64,000 bases of DNA. Origin: Hyphomicrobiales bacterium (lineage in GTDB: Bacteria; Pseudomonadota; Alphaproteobacteria; Rhizobiales; Beijerinckiaceae). The notes below the pieces were generated by a model that saw nothing but the letters and a program-made list of their open reading frames with translations, was not told the DNA's origin and searched no databases. The translations under genes were made by a program, and so were the position numbers. The stretch is taken from positions 62,001 through 126,000 of the forward strand of contig JAIXTP010000024.1 of the NCBI GenBank assembly GCA_027483895.1, given 5' to 3'. This document shows, in pieces, positions 11,221-57,719 of this stretch (position 1 is its first letter; each line of letters starts with the position of its first letter).

Positions 11221-11238
11221 TGTCCACTTTAATTGACA
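11221..11238. promoter_or_regulatory. PpsR/CrtJ operator between crtA and crtE
   Basis: A perfect TGT-N12-ACA sequence, TGTCCACTTTAATTGACA, sits in the 99-base gap between the divergent crtA and crtE starts. It is AT-rich against a GC-rich background, as expected of a promoter, and includes a TTGACA hexamer at 11233. Because the motif is palindromic it could repress both directions. Confidence 0.75.
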
Positions 11239-11280
11239 TCCGGAGTGCAAGGCAAACCGGACATTCGGGTGGAGAAGGCC

Positions 11281-12150
11281 ATGGACCCCGCCGTCTGGAT
11301 CGAAGGCAGCCTCGAATTCGCAATCGCGGAAGCGGCGGGCGGGGATTGCCCGCCTCTGCTCGCTGGGGCGCTGAGGCATTCCGTTTTCCCGGGAGGCGCG
11401 CGGCTGCGGCCGCGGCTCTGCCTTTCGGTGGCGATGGCTTGCGGCAAGGGCGACCGCGAAGCGGCGCTCGCGGCGGCCACCGCGATCGAGATCATCCATT
11501 GCGCCTCGCTGGTGCATGACGATCTGCCCTGCTTCGACGATGCGCCGACGCGGCGCGGCCGCCCCTCGGTGCAGGCGGAATACGGCCCGGCGCTCGCGGT
11601 GCTCGCGGGCGACGCGCTGATCGTCCTCGCCTTCGAGACCTTGGCCCGGCGGCTCGCTTCGCGGCCGCAGGCGCTGGCCCGGCTCGTCACCATCGTCGGG
11701 CGCGCTGCGGGTGCGCCGCACGGGATCACGGCCGGACAGGCCTTCGAATCCGAACCCGCGATCGACACAGCGCTCTATCACCGGGCCAAGACGGGCGCGC
11801 TCTTTGCCGCCGCGTCCGAAGCCGGTGCCGCCGCCTGCGGCGCGCCGAGCACGCCCTGGCGCCATCTCGGCGCCTATCTCGGCGAGGCCTATCAGGTGGC
11901 CGACGACATCCGCGATGCGGCGGGCGACGAGAACGAACTCGGAAAGCCCGTCGGCATCGACGTGAAGCTCGGACGGCCCAACGCCGTGCGGGACGTCGGC
12001 ATTCCGGACGCGATCCGCAGGCTCGACGAACTCGTCGAGGCCGCCGTCGAATCGGTGCCGCTCTGCCCCGGCCGCGAGCGCATGCACGAACTGATCCGCC
12101 ACGAGGCGAGCCGCTTCCTGCCGGAGAAGCTCGCCCGCCGCGCGGCCTGA
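11281..12150 (+). CDS. crtE: Geranylgeranyl diphosphate synthase
   Basis: Makes geranylgeranyl diphosphate, shared by phytoene synthase (crtB) and the bacteriochlorophyll tail enzymes (bchG, bchP). The 289-residue protein has the first aspartate-rich motif as HDDLPCFDDAPTRRGRP and the second as VADDIRDAAGDENELGKP, both of the E-type prenyltransferase family. The ATG at 11281 follows GGAGAAGG; a TTG further up lies inside the PpsR box and is rejected. It is followed one base after its stop by crtF. Confidence 0.93.
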   Translation: MDPAVWIEGSLEFAIAEAAGGDCPPLLAGALRHSVFPGGARLRPRLCLSVAMACGKGDREAALAAATAIEIIHCASLVHDDLPCFDDAPTRRGRPSVQAEYGPALAVLAGDALIVLAFETLARRLASRPQALARLVTIVGRAAGAPHGITAGQAFESEPAIDTALYHRAKTGALFAAASEAGAAACGAPSTPWRHLGAYLGEAYQVADDIRDAAGDENELGKPVGIDVKLGRPNAVRDVGIPDAIRRLDELVEAAVESVPLCPGRERMHELIRHEASRFLPEKLARRAA

Positions 12151-13269: not shown

Positions 13270-13287
13270 TGTCAGTTATTTTTGACA
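13270..13287. promoter_or_regulatory. PpsR/CrtJ operator 1 upstream of bchC
   Basis: Perfect TGT-N12-ACA, TGTCAGTTATTTTTGACA, in the strongly AT-rich gap between crtF and bchC. Ends in TTGACA, so it may overlap a -35 hexamer. A second perfect box follows seven bases later. Confidence 0.8.
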
Positions 13288-13294
13288 CACTAGA

Positions 13295-13312
13295 TGTAAT
13301 TGATAATTGACA
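13295..13312. promoter_or_regulatory. PpsR/CrtJ operator 2 upstream of bchC
   Basis: Second perfect TGT-N12-ACA, TGTAATTGATAATTGACA, seven bases after the first. Paired boxes with this close spacing are known to bind PpsR/CrtJ cooperatively at the bchC promoter of Rhodobacter; the same arrangement is seen here 55 bases ahead of the bchC start. Confidence 0.8.
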
Positions 13313-13366
13313 TTCTGAGCCGTCGTGCTTTCCTTACATCCGGATTTTCCCGGAGAGGTACCCCCG

Positions 13367-14308
13367 GTGTCGCAGGCAAGCACCCTTGCCGTGGTTCTCG
13401 AAGCGCCCGAACGGTTGGCGCTCGCGCCCGTGACTCTGGTCGCGGCCGGAGCGGACGACGTTCTGGTCGACGTCGAGTGGAGCGGCATCAGCACGGGTAC
13501 CGAACGCCTTCTGTGGTCGGGTCGCATGCCCCCGTTCCCTGGGCTCGGCTATCCCCTGGTTCCCGGCTACGAGACGATCGGGCGCATCGCCGAGGCTTCG
13601 GGCGACGCCCGCGACCGCATCGGTCAGCGCGTCTTCGTGCCCGGCTCGCGCGGCTTCGCCGATGTCCGCGGACTGTTCGGCGGCGCCGCTCGTCGCCTCG
13701 TCGTTCCCGCGGCCAAGGCCGTGGCTGTGGACGAGGCTCTCGGCGAAAACGCCGTCCTTCTCGCTCTCGCCGCAACCGCCCGGCATGCCGTCGCAGGCGG
13801 CACGCTGCCCGAACTCGTCGTAGGACACGGCGTCCTCGGCCGGCTGGTCGCGCGCCTCGTCAAGGCGCTCGGCGGCGACCCCGTCGTTTGGGAGAGCAAT
13901 CCCGCGCGTCGCTCGGGCGCCGAAGGCTACCGCGCGATCGACCCGGCCACGGACGAGCGGCGCGACTACCGCGCCGTCTGCGACGTCTCCGGCGATCCCG
14001 GCATTCTCGACACCCTGATCGGCCGCATCTCGGCCGGCGGCGAGGTCGTGCTCGCGGGCTTCTACGAAACCTCGCTTTCCTTCGCCTTTCCGCCCGCCTT
14101 CATGCGCGAGGCCCGCATCCGCATCGCCGCGGAGTGGAAGCCCGCCGACATGGAAGCGGTGATCGCGCTGGTTTCGTCGGGCGCGCTTTCGCTCGACGGC
14201 CTGATCACGCATCGCGCCGCCGCCGAAGACGCGACCGACGCCTATCGCACCGCCTTCGCCGATCCCGCCTGCCTCAAGATGATCCTCGATTGGAGAGCCC
14301 GCTCATGA
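13367..14308 (+). CDS. bchC: 3-hydroxyethyl bacteriochlorophyllide a dehydrogenase
   Basis: Oxidises the C-3 hydroxyethyl group of (bacterio)chlorophyllide to acetyl, late in bacteriochlorophyll a synthesis. The 313-residue protein is of the medium-chain alcohol dehydrogenase fold, with WSGISTGTERLLWSGRMPPFPG and LVPGYETIG typical of BchC and a nucleotide-binding stretch LVVGHGVLGRLVARLVK. Start is the GTG at 13367 with GGAGAG nine bases upstream; an earlier in-frame codon at 13325 adds a leader unlike the family. The gene heads bchCXYZ and overlaps bchX by four bases. Confidence 0.93.
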   Translation: MSQASTLAVVLEAPERLALAPVTLVAAGADDVLVDVEWSGISTGTERLLWSGRMPPFPGLGYPLVPGYETIGRIAEASGDARDRIGQRVFVPGSRGFADVRGLFGGAARRLVVPAAKAVAVDEALGENAVLLALAATARHAVAGGTLPELVVGHGVLGRLVARLVKALGGDPVVWESNPARRSGAEGYRAIDPATDERRDYRAVCDVSGDPGILDTLIGRISAGGEVVLAGFYETSLSFAFPPAFMREARIRIAAEWKPADMEAVIALVSSGALSLDGLITHRAAAEDATDAYRTAFADPACLKMILDWRARS

Positions 14309-18987: not shown

Positions 18988-19197
18988 ATGTGGAAGATCT
19001 GGTACAGCATTTTCGATCCCCGTCGTGCGCTGATCGCGCAGGCGGTGTTCCTCGGCGCGCTGATGTTCACGATCCATCTGATCCTGCTCAGCACGGACCG
19101 GTACAACTGGCTCGACGGCCCCCGCCAGAAGAAGGCGGAGATCACCGAGACGGTGAAGGTCGCCCTCCTCGATACGACGGCGAAAATCGCGGGCTGA
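18988..19197 (+). CDS. pufA: Light-harvesting 1 (B875) alpha subunit
   Basis: Partner of PufB in the LH1 heterodimer. The 69-residue protein begins [20 protein letters not shown], the usual alpha-chain amphipathic N-terminus, and has the bacteriochlorophyll-ligand histidine in [11 protein letters not shown] followed by the W of NWLDG, which typically hydrogen-bonds the pigment. The start is preceded by GGGAGA. A strong hairpin follows it, ahead of pufL. Confidence 0.95.
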
Positions 19198-23532: not shown

Positions 23533-24858
23533 TCAGACGGAAGCGGAAGCGGCAGGCGCGGTCGTCGCGCGGGCGCGGGCGGCGGCACCGTCCCGCCCGA
23601 CGCGGACGGCGAGGATCGCCGACAGAAGGAACAGCACCGCCTCGCCGATGAAGACGGCGGAATAGGCGACGAGCGGGTCGGGAGAGAAGGAACGACAGAG
23701 ATCGACGGCGACGGCGCCGAGAAAACCGCCGGATCCGAAGGCGATGGCCTGAGCCGCGCCCCAAAGACCCATGCGGGTGCCCTCGCGGCCCCGCGCCCCG
23801 TCGCCGGCGAGCGCCATCATCGAGGCGATCGCGGCGGCGGCGAAGGCGCCGTTCGCCGTGCCGAGCAGGAAGACGACCGGCCGCAGCCAGCGCACGTCCG
23901 CCGCGAAGGCCGTGGCCGACAGCGCGGTGAGGAGCAGCGCGGAGGCGATGCAGCCGCCGATCATCCAGCCCGTGAGAACGCGCTTCGCCGCCTTGCCGAA
24001 TAGCGTGGCGACGGCGGACATCAGGACCATGCCGGCCAAGACGCCGCCGTGCTGGACGCCGGCGAGCTTCGTCGTCTCGCCCGGGGTCAGGCCGAAGACG
24101 AGGCCCGCGAAGGGTTCGAGAATGAGGTCCTGACCGTTGTAGGCGAGCATGGAGACGAAGACGAAGATGGTGAAGCGGCGCGCCTGCGGTTCGGCCCAGA
24201 CCTCGGCCATCGCGGCCTTGAAATCGAGCTTCGGCTTGTCCTCGCGGACGCCGGGCGCGGCTTTCGGCTCCATACCGAACAGGGCGAGCGCGGTGAGGAG
24301 CACGGCGACGACGGAGACGCCTGCCGAGGCCTTCACCAGGCGTTCGGGCGTATAGGGATCGAGGAAGGAGCCGACGACGGCGGTCGTGACGATGAAGCCC
24401 GCGATCATCATCACCCAGACGGTGGTGGCCGCGGCCGCGCGCCGATGCTCGGCCACGCGGCTCGCCAAGAGCGCGAGAAGCGATGTTCCGCTCGCCCCCA
24501 CGCCGACGCCGATCATCAGGAAGGCCGCGATCGCGAGCGCGAGCGCCGGCACGAAATGATCGGCCGTCAGCACGGTCGCGAGCGCGGCGAGAAAGCCGCC
24601 GAGCGCGAGAACGGCCATGCCGCCGAGGATCCAAGGCGTGCGTCGGCCTCCGGCGTCCGAACCGAAACCCCAGCGCGGGCGCAGCATCTGGACGGCGTAG
24701 TGCAGCGCGACGAGCGCGCCGGGAATGGCGGCGGCGAGACCGATCTCGACCACCATGATGCGGTTCAGCGTCGAGGTGGTGAGCACGACGACGGAGCCGA
24801 GCGCCGTCTGGACCAGACCGAGCCGGATGATGCCCGGCCAACCGATGTCGCGGATCAT
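23533..24858 (-). CDS. PucC-family membrane transporter-like protein (Bch2/ORF428 type)
   Basis: A 441-residue major-facilitator-like protein with about 12 hydrophobic segments, of the PucC/LhaA/Bch2 family, found between bchG and bchP in purple bacteria. Family stretches include TSTLNRIMVVEIGLAA, LRPRWGFGSDAGGRRTPWI and LEPFAGLVFGLTPGETT. Relatives are needed for antenna assembly or pigment delivery, but their transported substrate is unknown. The start ATG overlaps the bchG stop (TCATGA on the plus strand). Compare lhaA at 36951, a second member. Confidence 0.88.
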   Translation of the reverse strand: MIRDIGWPGIIRLGLVQTALGSVVVLTTSTLNRIMVVEIGLAAAIPGALVALHYAVQMLRPRWGFGSDAGGRRTPWILGGMAVLALGGFLAALATVLTADHFVPALALAIAAFLMIGVGVGASGTSLLALLASRVAEHRRAAAATTVWVMMIAGFIVTTAVVGSFLDPYTPERLVKASAGVSVVAVLLTALALFGMEPKAAPGVREDKPKLDFKAAMAEVWAEPQARRFTIFVFVSMLAYNGQDLILEPFAGLVFGLTPGETTKLAGVQHGGVLAGMVLMSAVATLFGKAAKRVLTGWMIGGCIASALLLTALSATAFAADVRWLRPVVFLLGTANGAFAAAAIASMMALAGDGARGREGTRMGLWGAAQAIAFGSGGFLGAVAVDLCRSFSPDPLVAYSAVFIGEAVLFLLSAILAVRVGRDGAAARARATTAPAASASV

Positions 24859-25742
24859 GAGCCCGTCCCCGGCAGGATGCTGCGGATCGCGAAGGCGGCG
24901 ACCGCCATGCCGAGCACGTAGAGCGTCGTGCCGGTCGCGTTGTACCAGGCGGCCCAACGCTTCGGGTCGCTGAGAAGGCGGATCATCAGCACGCCCTGCG
25001 CGGCAAGGAGCACCGCGATCGCGGCCGCATGGAACGGAAGCCCCCATGCGGCGAGGGCCGCGATGACCACGATCTGCGGAACGGCCATGACGATGCAGGC
25101 GAGCCGGGCGGCGCGCATGGTGCCGAGCATGACGGGAAGCGAGGCGAGGCCCATCCGGCGGTCGCCTTCCTCCGACTTGAAGTCGTTCAGGGTCATGATG
25201 CCGTGCGCGCCGAGGCTGTAGACGAACGCCACCATCAGAACGCGGAGGTCCGGCAGAGCGGCGCTCATCACGGCCGCGCCGGTGAACCAGGGCAGCCCCT
25301 CGTAGCAGATCGCGACGGCGGCATTGCCCCACCAGCCGTTCTTCTTCAGCCGCAAGGGAGGCGCACTGTAGATCCAGGCGAGCACGAGACCGAAAGCGGC
25401 GGCGGCGAGAACGAACGGGCCGGTCAGGCCCGCGACGAGAAGCGAAAGGGCCGTCCAGCCGATGGCGATGGCGAGCCCCCACCGGCCGGGCATGCGGCCG
25501 GACGGAATGGGGCGGTTCGGCTCGTTGATGGCGTCGACATGGCGGTCGAACCAGTCGTTCACGGCCTGACTGGTGCCGCAGACGAGCGGGCCCGCCAGAA
25601 GCAGGCCCGCAAGCACGGCGGGCCAACGCTCACTGACCGCTCCGCCCGCGGAGACGATGCCGCAGGCGAAGGCCCAGACGGGCGCGAACCACGTGATGGG
25701 CTTGAGCAGTTCGAGGACGACCGAGAGGGCCGGACGGGACAT
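24855..25742 (-). CDS. bchG: Bacteriochlorophyll a synthase (geranylgeranyl transferase)
   Basis: UbiA-type prenyltransferase that esterifies bacteriochlorophyllide a with geranylgeranyl diphosphate in the membrane. The 295-residue protein has multiple transmembrane helices and the first aspartate-rich motif NDWFDRHVDAINEPNRPIPSG, typical of chlorophyll synthases, and a second FKSEEGDRRMGLASLPV. It heads the bchG-bch2-bchP operon, with a perfect palindromic PpsR operator 31 bases upstream. Confidence 0.95.
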   Translation of the reverse strand: MSRPALSVVLELLKPITWFAPVWAFACGIVSAGGAVSERWPAVLAGLLLAGPLVCGTSQAVNDWFDRHVDAINEPNRPIPSGRMPGRWGLAIAIGWTALSLLVAGLTGPFVLAAAAFGLVLAWIYSAPPLRLKKNGWWGNAAVAICYEGLPWFTGAAVMSAALPDLRVLMVAFVYSLGAHGIMTLNDFKSEEGDRRMGLASLPVMLGTMRAARLACIVMAVPQIVVIAALAAWGLPFHAAAIAVLLAAQGVLMIRLLSDPKRWAAWYNATGTTLYVLGMAVAAFAIRSILPGTGS

Positions 25743-25772: not shown

Positions 25773-25790
25773 TGTAAACGTGATCTTACA
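25773..25790. promoter_or_regulatory. PpsR/CrtJ operator upstream of bchG
   Basis: Perfect TGT-N12-ACA, TGTAAACGTGATCTTACA, inside a longer palindrome ACTGTAA-N8-TTACAGT (25771-25792). It lies between the end of ppsR and the start of bchG, in an AT-rich island, and probably controls bchG-bch2-bchP. Confidence 0.8.
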
Positions 25791-25813: not shown

Positions 25814-27205
25814 TCAGTCGCCGGTCTCGTCGTCGCCGCCGAGTTCGCCGATGCCGTAGCGCCTCAGCTTGTCGTAGAGGCTCTGGCGACTGACGCCGAG
25901 CATCTGCGCCGCGGCGGCGCGGTTGTCGTTCGTCAGGCGAAGCGCATCCTCGATGCAGAGCCGCTCGATGACGTCGGCGGTCTCGCGCACGATGTCCTTC
26001 AGCGGAAGGCGACCGATCAGCTCGGTGAGGTCGTGCGCGGACCGGGGCAGCTCGTGGCCGCCGCCCGACGAGACGGTGCGCTGCGGCGTGCGGCGGATCA
26101 GGAAGACGTAACCCGGAAGCCCCTGCTGGACCGACACGGCCGTAACGTCGACGTCCTCGCTCGTTCCGAACTCGCCGCGCAGGACAGTGCCGAAATCCTT
26201 GATCTGCCCGTATTCGCGCAGATTGCCGAACAGGATGCCGGTCTCGGCGCCGGAGCGGCCGAGGCGGCGTTCGAGGCTCTCGCCCAAGGCCTGTTCGAGA
26301 CGCGCGAAGCCCGCCATGTCGAGATAGGCGCGGTTGGCGCCGCGGACGACGCGGTCGAGATCCGTCACGACCATGGCTTCCGGCAGTTCGGGCAGCGCCA
26401 TGACCGCCGTGACCACGGGAGAGCCGTCCAAAGCGGCAAGACGGACGAGAAGATGCGTGGCTTCGTCCTGACGATAGGCCACGCCGGAGACCAGTGCGGC
26501 GCGCCCTTGGGATCCGATGCGGACGCGGATCGGCTCCATGCGTCCGCCGCCGCGCGTGCTCGCGATGACGTCCTGAAGCAATTCGCGGTCTGCCGGATCG
26601 AAGAATTCCGAGAGCGGCCGCCCCACGATGCGTCCGGGCGTGGCTTCGAGCAGCGTCGTCGCCGCCGGATTGAGATCCACGACGCGACCGTTCGCGGCAT
26701 CGATGATCAACACCGCCTCGGACCCGAGCTGGAACAGAAGCCTGTAACGGGTTTCCGCGCTGCGCAGCCGGAGATAGTCCCGCTCCATCGCGCGCTGGGA
26801 GTCGACCAGCCGCTGCTGCATGCGGGCGACCGCACGAAGATCCTGCCCGAGCGCGATCACCCCGCCGTCGGCGGCAGAGACGGTGACGTAACGAACGGCG
26901 ATTTCGCCCTTTTCGGACAGTTGATTGATCTCGCGGCGGACCGGGCCGGTGCCGGCGCGGGCGTCGCGGAGAAGCTGCTCGACCTTGGGCCGGCTCTCGA
27001 TCGTGACCGTCTCGGTCCAAGGCCGACCGGCCCACGCGGCCACGGCGTCGCGGATATGCTCCTCGACCGTATGGACGGAAAGGATGCGCCCGTCCGCGCC
27101 CACCCTCAGCGAAATGTCCGATGCGACTTCCAGCAGATGCACGAAACGGTCGTCCGTCTCGTAACTCTCGCGGTCATGATGAGGCACTACGTCACCGCCG
27201 ATCAC
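25814..27205 (-). CDS. ppsR: PpsR/CrtJ-type transcriptional repressor of photosynthesis genes
   Basis: DNA-binding repressor that binds TGT-N12-ACA sites under oxygen. About 463 residues: N-terminal PAS-like region, a glutamine-rich coiled linker (ARMQQRLVDSQRAMERDYLRL), two further PAS domains (around ETRYRLLFQLGSEAVLIID and LPEAMVVTDLDRVVRGANRAY) and a C-terminal Fis-type helix-turn-helix, AAAAQMLGVSRQSLYDKLRR. The only cysteine is about residue 417, in ERLCIEDAL at the helix-turn-helix, matching CrtJ Cys420; the second redox cysteine of CrtJ/PpsR is absent. The first start is a GTG at 27205 without a clear ribosome site, so the exact N-terminus is uncertain. Adjacent to aerR, as in relatives. 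Confidence 0.93.
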   Translation of the reverse strand: MIGGDVVPHHDRESYETDDRFVHLLEVASDISLRVGADGRILSVHTVEEHIRDAVAAWAGRPWTETVTIESRPKVEQLLRDARAGTGPVRREINQLSEKGEIAVRYVTVSAADGGVIALGQDLRAVARMQQRLVDSQRAMERDYLRLRSAETRYRLLFQLGSEAVLIIDAANGRVVDLNPAATTLLEATPGRIVGRPLSEFFDPADRELLQDVIASTRGGGRMEPIRVRIGSQGRAALVSGVAYRQDEATHLLVRLAALDGSPVVTAVMALPELPEAMVVTDLDRVVRGANRAYLDMAGFARLEQALGESLERRLGRSGAETGILFGNLREYGQIKDFGTVLRGEFGTSEDVDVTAVSVQQGLPGYVFLIRRTPQRTVSSGGGHELPRSAHDLTELIGRLPLKDIVRETADVIERLCIEDALRLTNDNRAAAAQMLGVSRQSLYDKLRRYGIGELGGDDETGD

Positions 27206-27276: not shown

Positions 27277-28101
27277 CTACATCGCGGAATGACGCCGAAG
27301 TTCATCGGCGTCGCGGGGGTGAATGTCGGCGCAGACGCGGGCGCAGAGACCCGGGTCTCGGTCGAAAGCGCGGCCGCCCACCATCACGACGATCCCGCGA
27401 TTCTTGGACGAGCGCCGAACGTCCCGGATGAGATCGGCGAGATCGCCGGCCAGCGCCTCGCGGCTCAGCGCGAAGCCGATCATGTTGAAATGACCGGAGC
27501 GGACATTGTCCACCACTTCGGCGGGGTCGGAGCGGAGCAGGGCGGAGACGTGCCAGCCCTGTTCGCGCAGCAGATCGCCGACCACCAGAATGCCCAGCGT
27601 ATGCTGATCCCCGGGTGCGGGAACGAGCAAGGCCGTACGATCGACCGTCGCGGCATTCCGGCGAGAAGGCTCCGCATGCTCGCCTTCGAGGACCAGTTGC
27701 TCGAGCCTCATCGAGGCGGTGCTGACCGCAGCGAAACCGAGCGCATCTTCCTCCCAGTCGCAACCGAGGCGGCGGGCGGCGGGTGCGACGAGTTCCAGAA
27801 GCACCGAGGTCCATGAGACGCCGCGTCCGCGCACCTCGCGGAGAAAGGCCCGCGGCGGCACGATGTCTTCCTGGCGGATCAATTCGACGAAGCGATCGAT
27901 TTCTTCCGGCGCGATGCGGTCGGGATCGACCCTCGGCGCGTCCGCATAGACGGCGAAGAGCTTCGGGATCGCATTGGTGCGGATGGCGCGGACGAGCTCC
28001 GCGAACCTTTCAGGGCCCGCGACCTGCCGCGGGAAGGACAACGAACCCGAATCGGCAGACGGTTCGGGCCGCAATTCGCGGCCGCGCTCATGCCCAAGCA
28101 T
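27277..28101 (-). CDS. aerR: AerR/PpaA-type cobalamin-binding antirepressor
   Basis: Regulator that in Rhodobacter binds light-sensitive cobalamin and alters CrtJ/PpsR activity. The 274-residue protein has a B12-binding domain with the D-x-H-x-x-G-type motif GDQHTLGILVVGDLLREQGW and a Rossmann-like tail VVMVGGRAFDRDPGL. The N-terminal half, about 130 residues, looks like the SCHIC/AerR helical part with RQEDIVPPRAFLREVRGRGVSW. Start ATG has GGGAGGG six bases upstream. It lies directly upstream of ppsR on the same strand, 71 bases apart, and divergent from bchF. Confidence 0.87.
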   Translation of the reverse strand: MLGHERGRELRPEPSADSGSLSFPRQVAGPERFAELVRAIRTNAIPKLFAVYADAPRVDPDRIAPEEIDRFVELIRQEDIVPPRAFLREVRGRGVSWTSVLLELVAPAARRLGCDWEEDALGFAAVSTASMRLEQLVLEGEHAEPSRRNAATVDRTALLVPAPGDQHTLGILVVGDLLREQGWHVSALLRSDPAEVVDNVRSGHFNMIGFALSREALAGDLADLIRDVRRSSKNRGIVVMVGGRAFDRDPGLCARVCADIHPRDADELRRHSAM

Positions 28102-55908: not shown

Positions 55909-56039
55909 GCCCCGTTCTTAGGCCGCCCGCGCCCCCGCGGAAAGCGCCGCGTGCGCCGGCCCGCGCTTTCCACAGCGCGGGCTTCGTTCATTTGCCGCAT
56001 CGCACCTTGATCCAGCGCAATTCGGCCGCCCTCTCCGAC

Positions 56040-56057
56040 TGTCAATTTGTTTGGACG
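56040..56057. promoter_or_regulatory. One-mismatch PpsR/CrtJ operator upstream of bchE
   Basis: TGT-N12-ACG (TGTCAATTTGTTTGGACG), one base from the consensus, 15 bases ahead of the bchE start and overlapping its ribosome site region. It is the only such site I found on this side of the housekeeping genes. Confidence 0.55.
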
Positions 56058-56072
56058 TCAGGGAGGTGGAAC

Positions 56073-57719
56073 ATGCGCATTCTCTTCATTCACCCGAATT
56101 ATCATTCGGGCGGCGCCGAGATCGCCGGCAGCTGGCCCCCGGCTTGGGTCGCCTATCTGGCGGGTGCGCTGAAGCATTCCGGCTTCCCCGACGTTCATTT
56201 CATCGACGCGATGACGCTCGACGTTTCGGATGACGATCTGCGCGAGCGGATCCGCGAACTGGCGCCCGACATCGTGGGCGCGACGGCCATCACGCCCTCG
56301 ATCTACAAGGCCGAACGCGTGCTGGAGATCGCGCGCGAGGCCGCGCCGCGGGCCGTGACGCTGCTCGGCGGAGTGCATGCCACGTTCATGTACAAGCAGG
56401 TGCTGCCCGAGGCCCCGCATATCGACGCGATCGTCCGCGGCGAGGGCGAGGAGATCATGATCGAGGTCGCCCGCGCGGTCGCCGAAGGCCGCTGGCCGGA
56501 GGCGCGGCCGAGCATCAAGGGCCTCGCCTACATCGTCGACGGCAAGGTTTATGCGACGCCGGCCGCACCCACGGTGAAGAACATCGACGACTTGAAGGCG
56601 GATTGGTCGATCCTCGACTGGACCCGCTACAACTACATCCCGCTGAACACGCGCGTCGCGATCCCCAACATGGCCCGCGGCTGCCCCTTCACCTGCAGCT
56701 TCTGCTCGCAGTGGAAGTTCTGGCGCGACTACCGCATCCGCGACCCCAAGAAGGTCGTCGACGAGATCGTGGACCTGAAGGAGAACCACGGGGTCGGCTT
56801 CTTCATCCTCGCGGACGAGGAGCCCACCATCAACAAGAAGAAGTTCATCGCCTTCTGCAATGAACTGATCGCGCGCGACGTGAACATCCTGTGGGGGATC
56901 AACACGCGCGTGACCGACATCCTGCGCGACGAGGCGGAGCTGCCGCTCTACCGCAAGGCGGGGCTCATCCACGTCTCGCTCGGCACGGAAGCGGCAGCCC
57001 AGCTGAAGCTCGACCTCTTCAACAAGGAGACGACGGTCGCCGACAACAAGCGGGCGATCGAACTGCTGCGCAAGGCGGGGATCGTGGTCGAGGCCCAGTT
57101 CATCGTCGGCCTCGAGAACGAGACGGCCGAGACGCTCGAAGAGACCTATCGCATGGCCTGCGACTGGAAACCGGACCTCGCGAACTGGTCGATGTACACG
57201 CCCTGGCCCTTCTCCGACCTGTTCCGCGAACTCGGCGACAAGGTCGAGGTGTTCGACTACGAGAAATACAATTTCGTCACGCCGATCATGAAGCCGGATT
57301 CCATGGAGCGCGGGGAACTCCTCGACCGCACCATGAACAATTACCGCCGCTTCTACATGAAGAAGGCCTTCTTCTCCTATCCGTGGCAGGGCTTCTCGAC
57401 CCGCGGCCGTTATCTCTGGGGCTGCCTCAAGGCCTATATGAAGGCGGGCTTCGAGCGGAAATTCTACGACCTCGGCAAGGTCGACTATTGGGGTCCGCAA
57501 TCGCGCAAACGGGTGAAGTTCGACTTCGACGCGACCCGCACCCGGGCCGACGATGCCGATGTCGAATGGCAGACCACCCACAAGCGCCGCTCGACCATGC
57601 ATGACGCGGCCGTCGCGATGGCCTGCGGCGGCGGCAAGGAGCAGATGGCCGAGAGCGAAGGCGGCGGCGTTCAGCTTCTCCCGCGACCGCCGAAGGCTCC
57701 GCCGCGGATGAAGATCTGA
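56073..57719 (+). CDS. bchE: Oxygen-independent Mg-protoporphyrin IX monomethyl ester cyclase
   Basis: Radical-SAM, cobalamin-dependent cyclase that makes the isocyclic ring with oxygen from water, for anoxic pigment synthesis. The 548-residue protein has an N-terminal B12-binding-type domain ([20 protein letters not shown]) and the radical-SAM cluster motif [14 protein letters not shown]. The ATG at 56073 fits the family and follows GGGAGG. It is followed by bchJ after 11 bases and is separated from the main cluster by dnaG and rpoD. Confidence 0.96.

Follow-up and report, generated by a model that had tools for sequence, protein, structure and literature searches.

The ppsR gene in the DNA analyzed here, a 64,000-nucleotide stretch of a Hyphomicrobiales genome (contig JAIXTP010000024.1; hereafter the window), encodes, as judged from its sequence, an ordinary PpsR/CrtJ-type repressor. 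Its translation contains exactly one cysteine, Cys417. With moderate confidence, we read the protein as being in a single-cysteine state that has already been described, in which redox sensing, if there is any, would act through Cys417 and light control through a neighboring AerR-like protein. An earlier note on this DNA had treated the lone cysteine as a departure from the PpsR norm. The observation is confirmed and its interpretation is partly supported, but the case is ordinary.

According to the ORF list and the translation, ppsR starts with the GTG at 27205, and its stop codon ends at 25814. The product matched the family model TIGR02040 with 399.6 bits (curated cut-off 275.4) over profile positions 1–442 of 442. 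Domain models detected PAS domains and an HTH_8 domain (residues 412–450), and the R. sphaeroides PpsR of solved structure 4hh2 was similar in sequence (E 3e-35). The gene is located between an aerR-like gene and bchG (24855–25742), within a photosynthesis gene cluster in which family models identified bchG, bchF, bchC, bchY, bchZ, pufM and pufC. Thus score, the combination of PAS with a Fis-type HTH, and gene location all place the product in TIGR02040. The coordinates of the features are collected in Table 1.

Table 1. Features of the ppsR region and TGT-N12-ACA boxes (window coordinates)
Feature	Position	Strand	Description
ppsR	25814..27205	minus	463 aa, GTG start; PAS domains and C-terminal Fis-type HTH
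Helix-turn-helix proper	25856..25921	minus	Residues 429–450; HTH_8 match and predicted model
Cys417 codon (TGC)	25955..25957	minus	Sole cysteine of PpsR
Gly365 codon	26111..26113	minus	First residue of last PAS2 strand in predicted model; Cys in 73/151 relatives
Val254 codon	26444..26446	minus	Aligns with PAS1 Cys of R. sphaeroides PpsR (4hh2_A alignment)
aerR-like gene	27277..28101	minus	274 aa; B12-binding domain with DQHTLG; directly upstream of ppsR
TGT-N12-ACA box	11221..11238	plus	Overlaps listed 5' end of prenyl diphosphate synthase-like ORF 11233–12150
Two TGT-N12-ACA boxes, 7 bp apart	13270..13312	plus	Upstream of bchC (ORF 13325–14308); possible PpsR operator
TGT-N12-ACA box	25773..25790	plus	Between ppsR and bchG

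The position of Cys417 given in the earlier note was confirmed by translation. Its placement in the DNA-binding helix holds only in part. Cys417 lies inside the HTH_8 domain, yet in the predicted structure it is on a helix (residues 402–424) ahead of the HTH helices (429–436 and 440–450). The prediction is weak (pTM 0.34, mean pLDDT 68.8), with block pLDDT values of 48 at residues 401–410 and 73–79 at 411–450, and distances between domains or subunits are not readable from it. We take Cys417 as the counterpart of CrtJ Cys420 and R. sphaeroides Cys424, by its position in the HTH domain. The PAS1 cysteine of 4hh2_A that aligns with Val254 is taken to be Cys251, as the PDB chain numbering is shifted. 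With valine at 254 and Cys417 as the only cysteine, the protein is not of the Rhodobacter two-cysteine disulfide type (PAS1 cysteine plus HTH-domain cysteine). It corresponds to the Bradyrhizobium PpsR1 type, which has one cysteine, in the HTH domain. The earlier conclusion that an intramolecular disulfide is impossible was therefore correct.

In order to place this state among related proteins, 151 relatives were aligned. The genome searches overlapped; they covered 120 relatives together with 385 genomes from the class, 397 from the order and 3 from the genus itself, with 4 or 13 candidates scored per genome depending on the search; 17 matches on named contigs (13 kept after duplicate removal) and 10 annotated plasmid genes were added. 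From 159 loci, we removed 4 without a PpsR frame (partial matches) and a further 14 that were either the window's own gene or rows identical over core residues 61–380. The remaining 141 and the 10 plasmid genes make up the 151, an uneven sample, since the searches overlapped, scored limited numbers of candidates and worked by similarity to the PpsR family. The closest matches on named contigs were pond metagenome assemblies labelled Hyphomicrobiales.

Column 417 carried cysteine in 140 of the 151 relatives, tyrosine in 5, serine in 4 and alanine in 2. In four of the relatives with alanine or serine (L018, L135, L141 and L142), the protein was the only full-length PpsR match in its genome among the candidates scored. 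The PAS1 cysteine at column 254 was found in only 9 relatives, seven of eight Rhodobacterales plasmid genes and two other rows. It was absent from the other 142, among them both congeners and each of the 20 relatives examined from the window's family. A PAS2 cysteine at column 365 was far commoner (73/151); it was missing from the window protein and both congeners, that is, from all three genomes of the genus. No row had cysteine at both 254 and 365. Among the 69 relatives with neither of these cysteines, 59 kept Cys417, so its conservation is independent of either partner. Neighboring residues were more conserved than Cys417 itself (E414 in 151, I418 in 146 and A421 in 149 of 151), and the conservation of Cys417 alone is thus no proof of a redox function.

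Cys417 as the sole cysteine is a minority state, seen in 18 of the 151 relatives. Within the window's own family (n = 20), Cys417 was present in 19, Cys365 in 9 and Cys254 in none, and two were single-cysteine proteins. The PpsR proteins of the two congeners are 63–70% identical to the window protein, and each carries one extra cysteine (columns 6 and 102). Neither is a single-cysteine protein, so that within the genus only this genome has a PpsR with exactly one cysteine. The alignment proposed in the earlier note as a check on the normal state thus gives a divided answer: absence of the PAS1 cysteine is the rule, whereas a strict single cysteine is not. Counting in each relative began where its alignment to the window protein begins, and N-terminal cysteines of relatives may be missed in these counts. 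For 17 of the single-cysteine rows (all but Roseinatronobacter sp. S2), which align from query residue 19–24, up to 40 upstream residues were read. Five had upstream cysteines, each before a methionine usable as a start; in one row (L015), neither methionine nor cysteine occurred in the 40 upstream residues, and its start position is therefore open. The one single-cysteine PpsR among the eight Rhodobacterales plasmid genes examined is that of Roseinatronobacter sp. S2 (L164). Its Cys434 falls at column 417 and a cobalamin-binding gene is adjacent, as here, but identity to the window protein is only 31.6%.

Relatives keeping Cys417 had on average 1.61 other cysteines (n = 140). A Poisson distribution with this mean predicts 19.9% without any other cysteine, and 18 of 140 (12.9%) were observed; chance alone is thus enough to account for the single-cysteine state. 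On a quick tree, the minimum number of changes was 14 for the single-cysteine state, 17 for Cys365, 2 for Cys254 and 7 for Cys417. This tree came from a short search with the three columns 254, 365 and 417 omitted, and 70 of its 149 inner branches were well supported while 40 were open. Taken together, the Poisson figures and the repeated changes indicate that the single cysteine was reached repeatedly via poorly conserved cysteines, with the HTH cysteine mostly staying.

We also searched the window for candidate PpsR binding sites. The pattern TGT-N12-ACA occurred 7 times (1.75 expected), a count that none of 100 shuffles reached. The stricter TGTCA-N8-TGACA with up to 2 mismatches was not enriched in the window (9 vs 6.71 expected; 22 of 100 shuffles reached 9). 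Besides the boxes in Table 1, the remaining three are at 18989, 54981 and 63605. ORF 11233–12150 matched the FPP synthase and CrtE models below their curated cut-offs. The double box with its exact 7-bp spacing was found once in this genome and was absent from the two congeners. A typical spacing is 8 bp (PMC9144470, in excerpt), and in Rubrivivax a change between 8 and 9 bp alters redox-dependent binding (PMC4452267, in excerpt).

The product of the gene upstream of ppsR is called AerR-like from its domain and position. In the draft assembly of 37 contigs there was one PpsR match, and a second PpsR carrying the redox role was rejected on this basis. Neither BLUF (AppA-type) proteins nor a phytochrome PHY domain, the mark of a bacteriophytochrome partner, had a match in the assembly, which is 93% complete, so that their absence is unproven. 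Light control of PpsR may accordingly rest on the AerR-like protein or on an unseen one. At 55992–57719 the window encodes a radical SAM protein that carries a B12-binding domain; the gene is possibly bchE.

The published PpsR work, cited here from excerpts of the papers, contains several precedents. Bradyrhizobium PpsR1 has Cys429 as its sole cysteine, which is enough for redox sensing, and its DNA affinity is higher when reduced (PMC4452267); the likeness to the window protein, judged by description, is the possession of one cysteine only. That organism, a photosynthetic Bradyrhizobium, possesses another ppsR, which is reserved for light control (PMC4452267), in contrast to the one PpsR match and no PHY match in the window's genome. 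The window protein resembles Rhodobacter CrtJ/PpsR in domain order, the HTH-domain cysteine and the TGT-N12-ACA boxes, and in R. capsulatus AerR is encoded with CrtJ (PMC9144470); it differs in the PAS1 cysteine and in the lack of a BLUF match in this assembly. The intramolecular disulfide, given in the earlier note as one proposed redox switch, is itself questioned on the basis of the crystal structure of R. sphaeroides PpsR, in which Cys251 within PAS1 makes such a bond unlikely (PMC3949515). The same excerpt lists different fates of the HTH cysteine by species: intermolecular or intramolecular disulfide, cofactor binding, and oxidation. Cysteines 349 and 412 are named in a Congregibacter paper (PMC2654016); compared by description, they were rejected as columns 365 and 417 as the spacing does not fit.

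We propose the following mechanism. PpsR would be expected to bind TGT-N12-ACA boxes before bch/crt genes, and redox sensing, if present, would rely on Cys417, in the helix ahead of the HTH, being reversibly oxidized. The most likely product, named here only tentatively, would be a disulfide that joins two subunits through their paired HTH domains; otherwise, sulfenic acid might perhaps be formed. Oxidation would change operator binding, which it might either strengthen or weaken, as Bradyrhizobium PpsR1 is reported to bind better when reduced (PMC4452267). Light input would come via the neighboring B12-binding AerR-like protein. Lone-thiol oxidation, an intersubunit disulfide and AerR had been suggested in the earlier note as the remaining routes; these are reasonable, and each is already published for other PpsR proteins, as is the single-cysteine PpsR itself. 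The proposal is favored by the TIGR02040 score, the presence of Cys417 in most relatives and in most of those without either partner, the 18 single-cysteine relatives, the AerR-like neighbor and the enrichment of TGT-N12-ACA, together with the excerpts on PpsR1 (PMC4452267), the cysteine fates (PMC3949515), the R. palustris disulfide (PMC6899989) and sulfenic acid (PMC9144470). It is weakened by the Rubrivivax mutant described below, the doubtful case of R. palustris PpsR2, the 11 of 151 relatives without Cys417 and the lack of enrichment of the stricter box.

Alternatively, sulfenic acid or heme ligation at Cys417 could suffice, without any disulfide, as proposed for CrtJ Cys420 and R. sphaeroides Cys424, which we regard as rather unlikely here. 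No partner cysteine is necessary for such chemistry, matching the single-cysteine PpsR, and in CrtJ of R. capsulatus sulfenic acid at Cys420 was reported in vivo together with a Cys-to-Ser mimic (PMC9144470); cofactor binding at the HTH cysteine is cited in PMC3949515. Against this stand intersubunit disulfides via the HTH cysteine in other PpsR proteins, namely the report of Jaubert 2004 as cited in PMC3949515 and R. palustris PpsR2, for which a DTT-sensitive intermolecular disulfide was assigned to the HTH domains (PMC6899989). The PpsR2 of strain CGA009 has only one cysteine (PMC10734443). Its Cys428 occurs in CGA009 and not in other strains and is possibly a laboratory mutation (PMC6899989), which makes the R. 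palustris disulfide a weak precedent.

Cys417 might also be kept for structure or packing of the DNA-binding domain, with little redox sensing and control exerted mainly via AerR or global regulators. We hold this to be unlikely. Rubrivivax gelatinosus PpsR likewise has an HTH-domain cysteine, Cys436, but three cysteines in all; according to the excerpt of PMC4452267, C436A had almost no phenotype in vivo and an intermolecular disulfide was not seen. The higher conservation of residues 414, 418 and 421 and the adjoining aerR-like gene point the same way. The R. capsulatus mutants argue in the other direction, since C420A greatly weakens and C420S strengthens binding (PMC9144470). That an assembly or translation error hides a second cysteine, the refutation named in the earlier note, is extremely improbable, even though the genome is a draft. 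The ORF listing begins at the first ATG, GTG or TTG after the preceding stop, so no cysteine is concealed at the N-terminus and a later start could only drop residues. A hidden frameshift is unlikely, because the frame is open and the full-length TIGR02040 alignment shows no frame breaks. A second cysteine concealed by a wrong start or frame was rejected on the ORF start, the translation and the profile match. Both congeners are likewise without cysteine at columns 254 and 365.

The view of the single-cysteine state as a departure from a PpsR norm is therefore not supported: the PAS1 cysteine is lacking in 142 of 151 relatives, and single-cysteine PpsR has been described (PMC4452267, in excerpt). 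That just 9 of the 151 relatives carry the partner cysteine speaks against the intramolecular disulfide of Rhodobacter as the general PpsR mechanism. Thiol chemistry between PAS2 and the HTH (365–417) might be the commoner PpsR switch, with this genus lacking it and relying on Cys417 and AerR, although we consider this very unlikely. A false lead is removed, as the lone cysteine was reached many times among relatives and is no oddity of this genome. The one lead of broader interest is the PAS2 cysteine of column 365.
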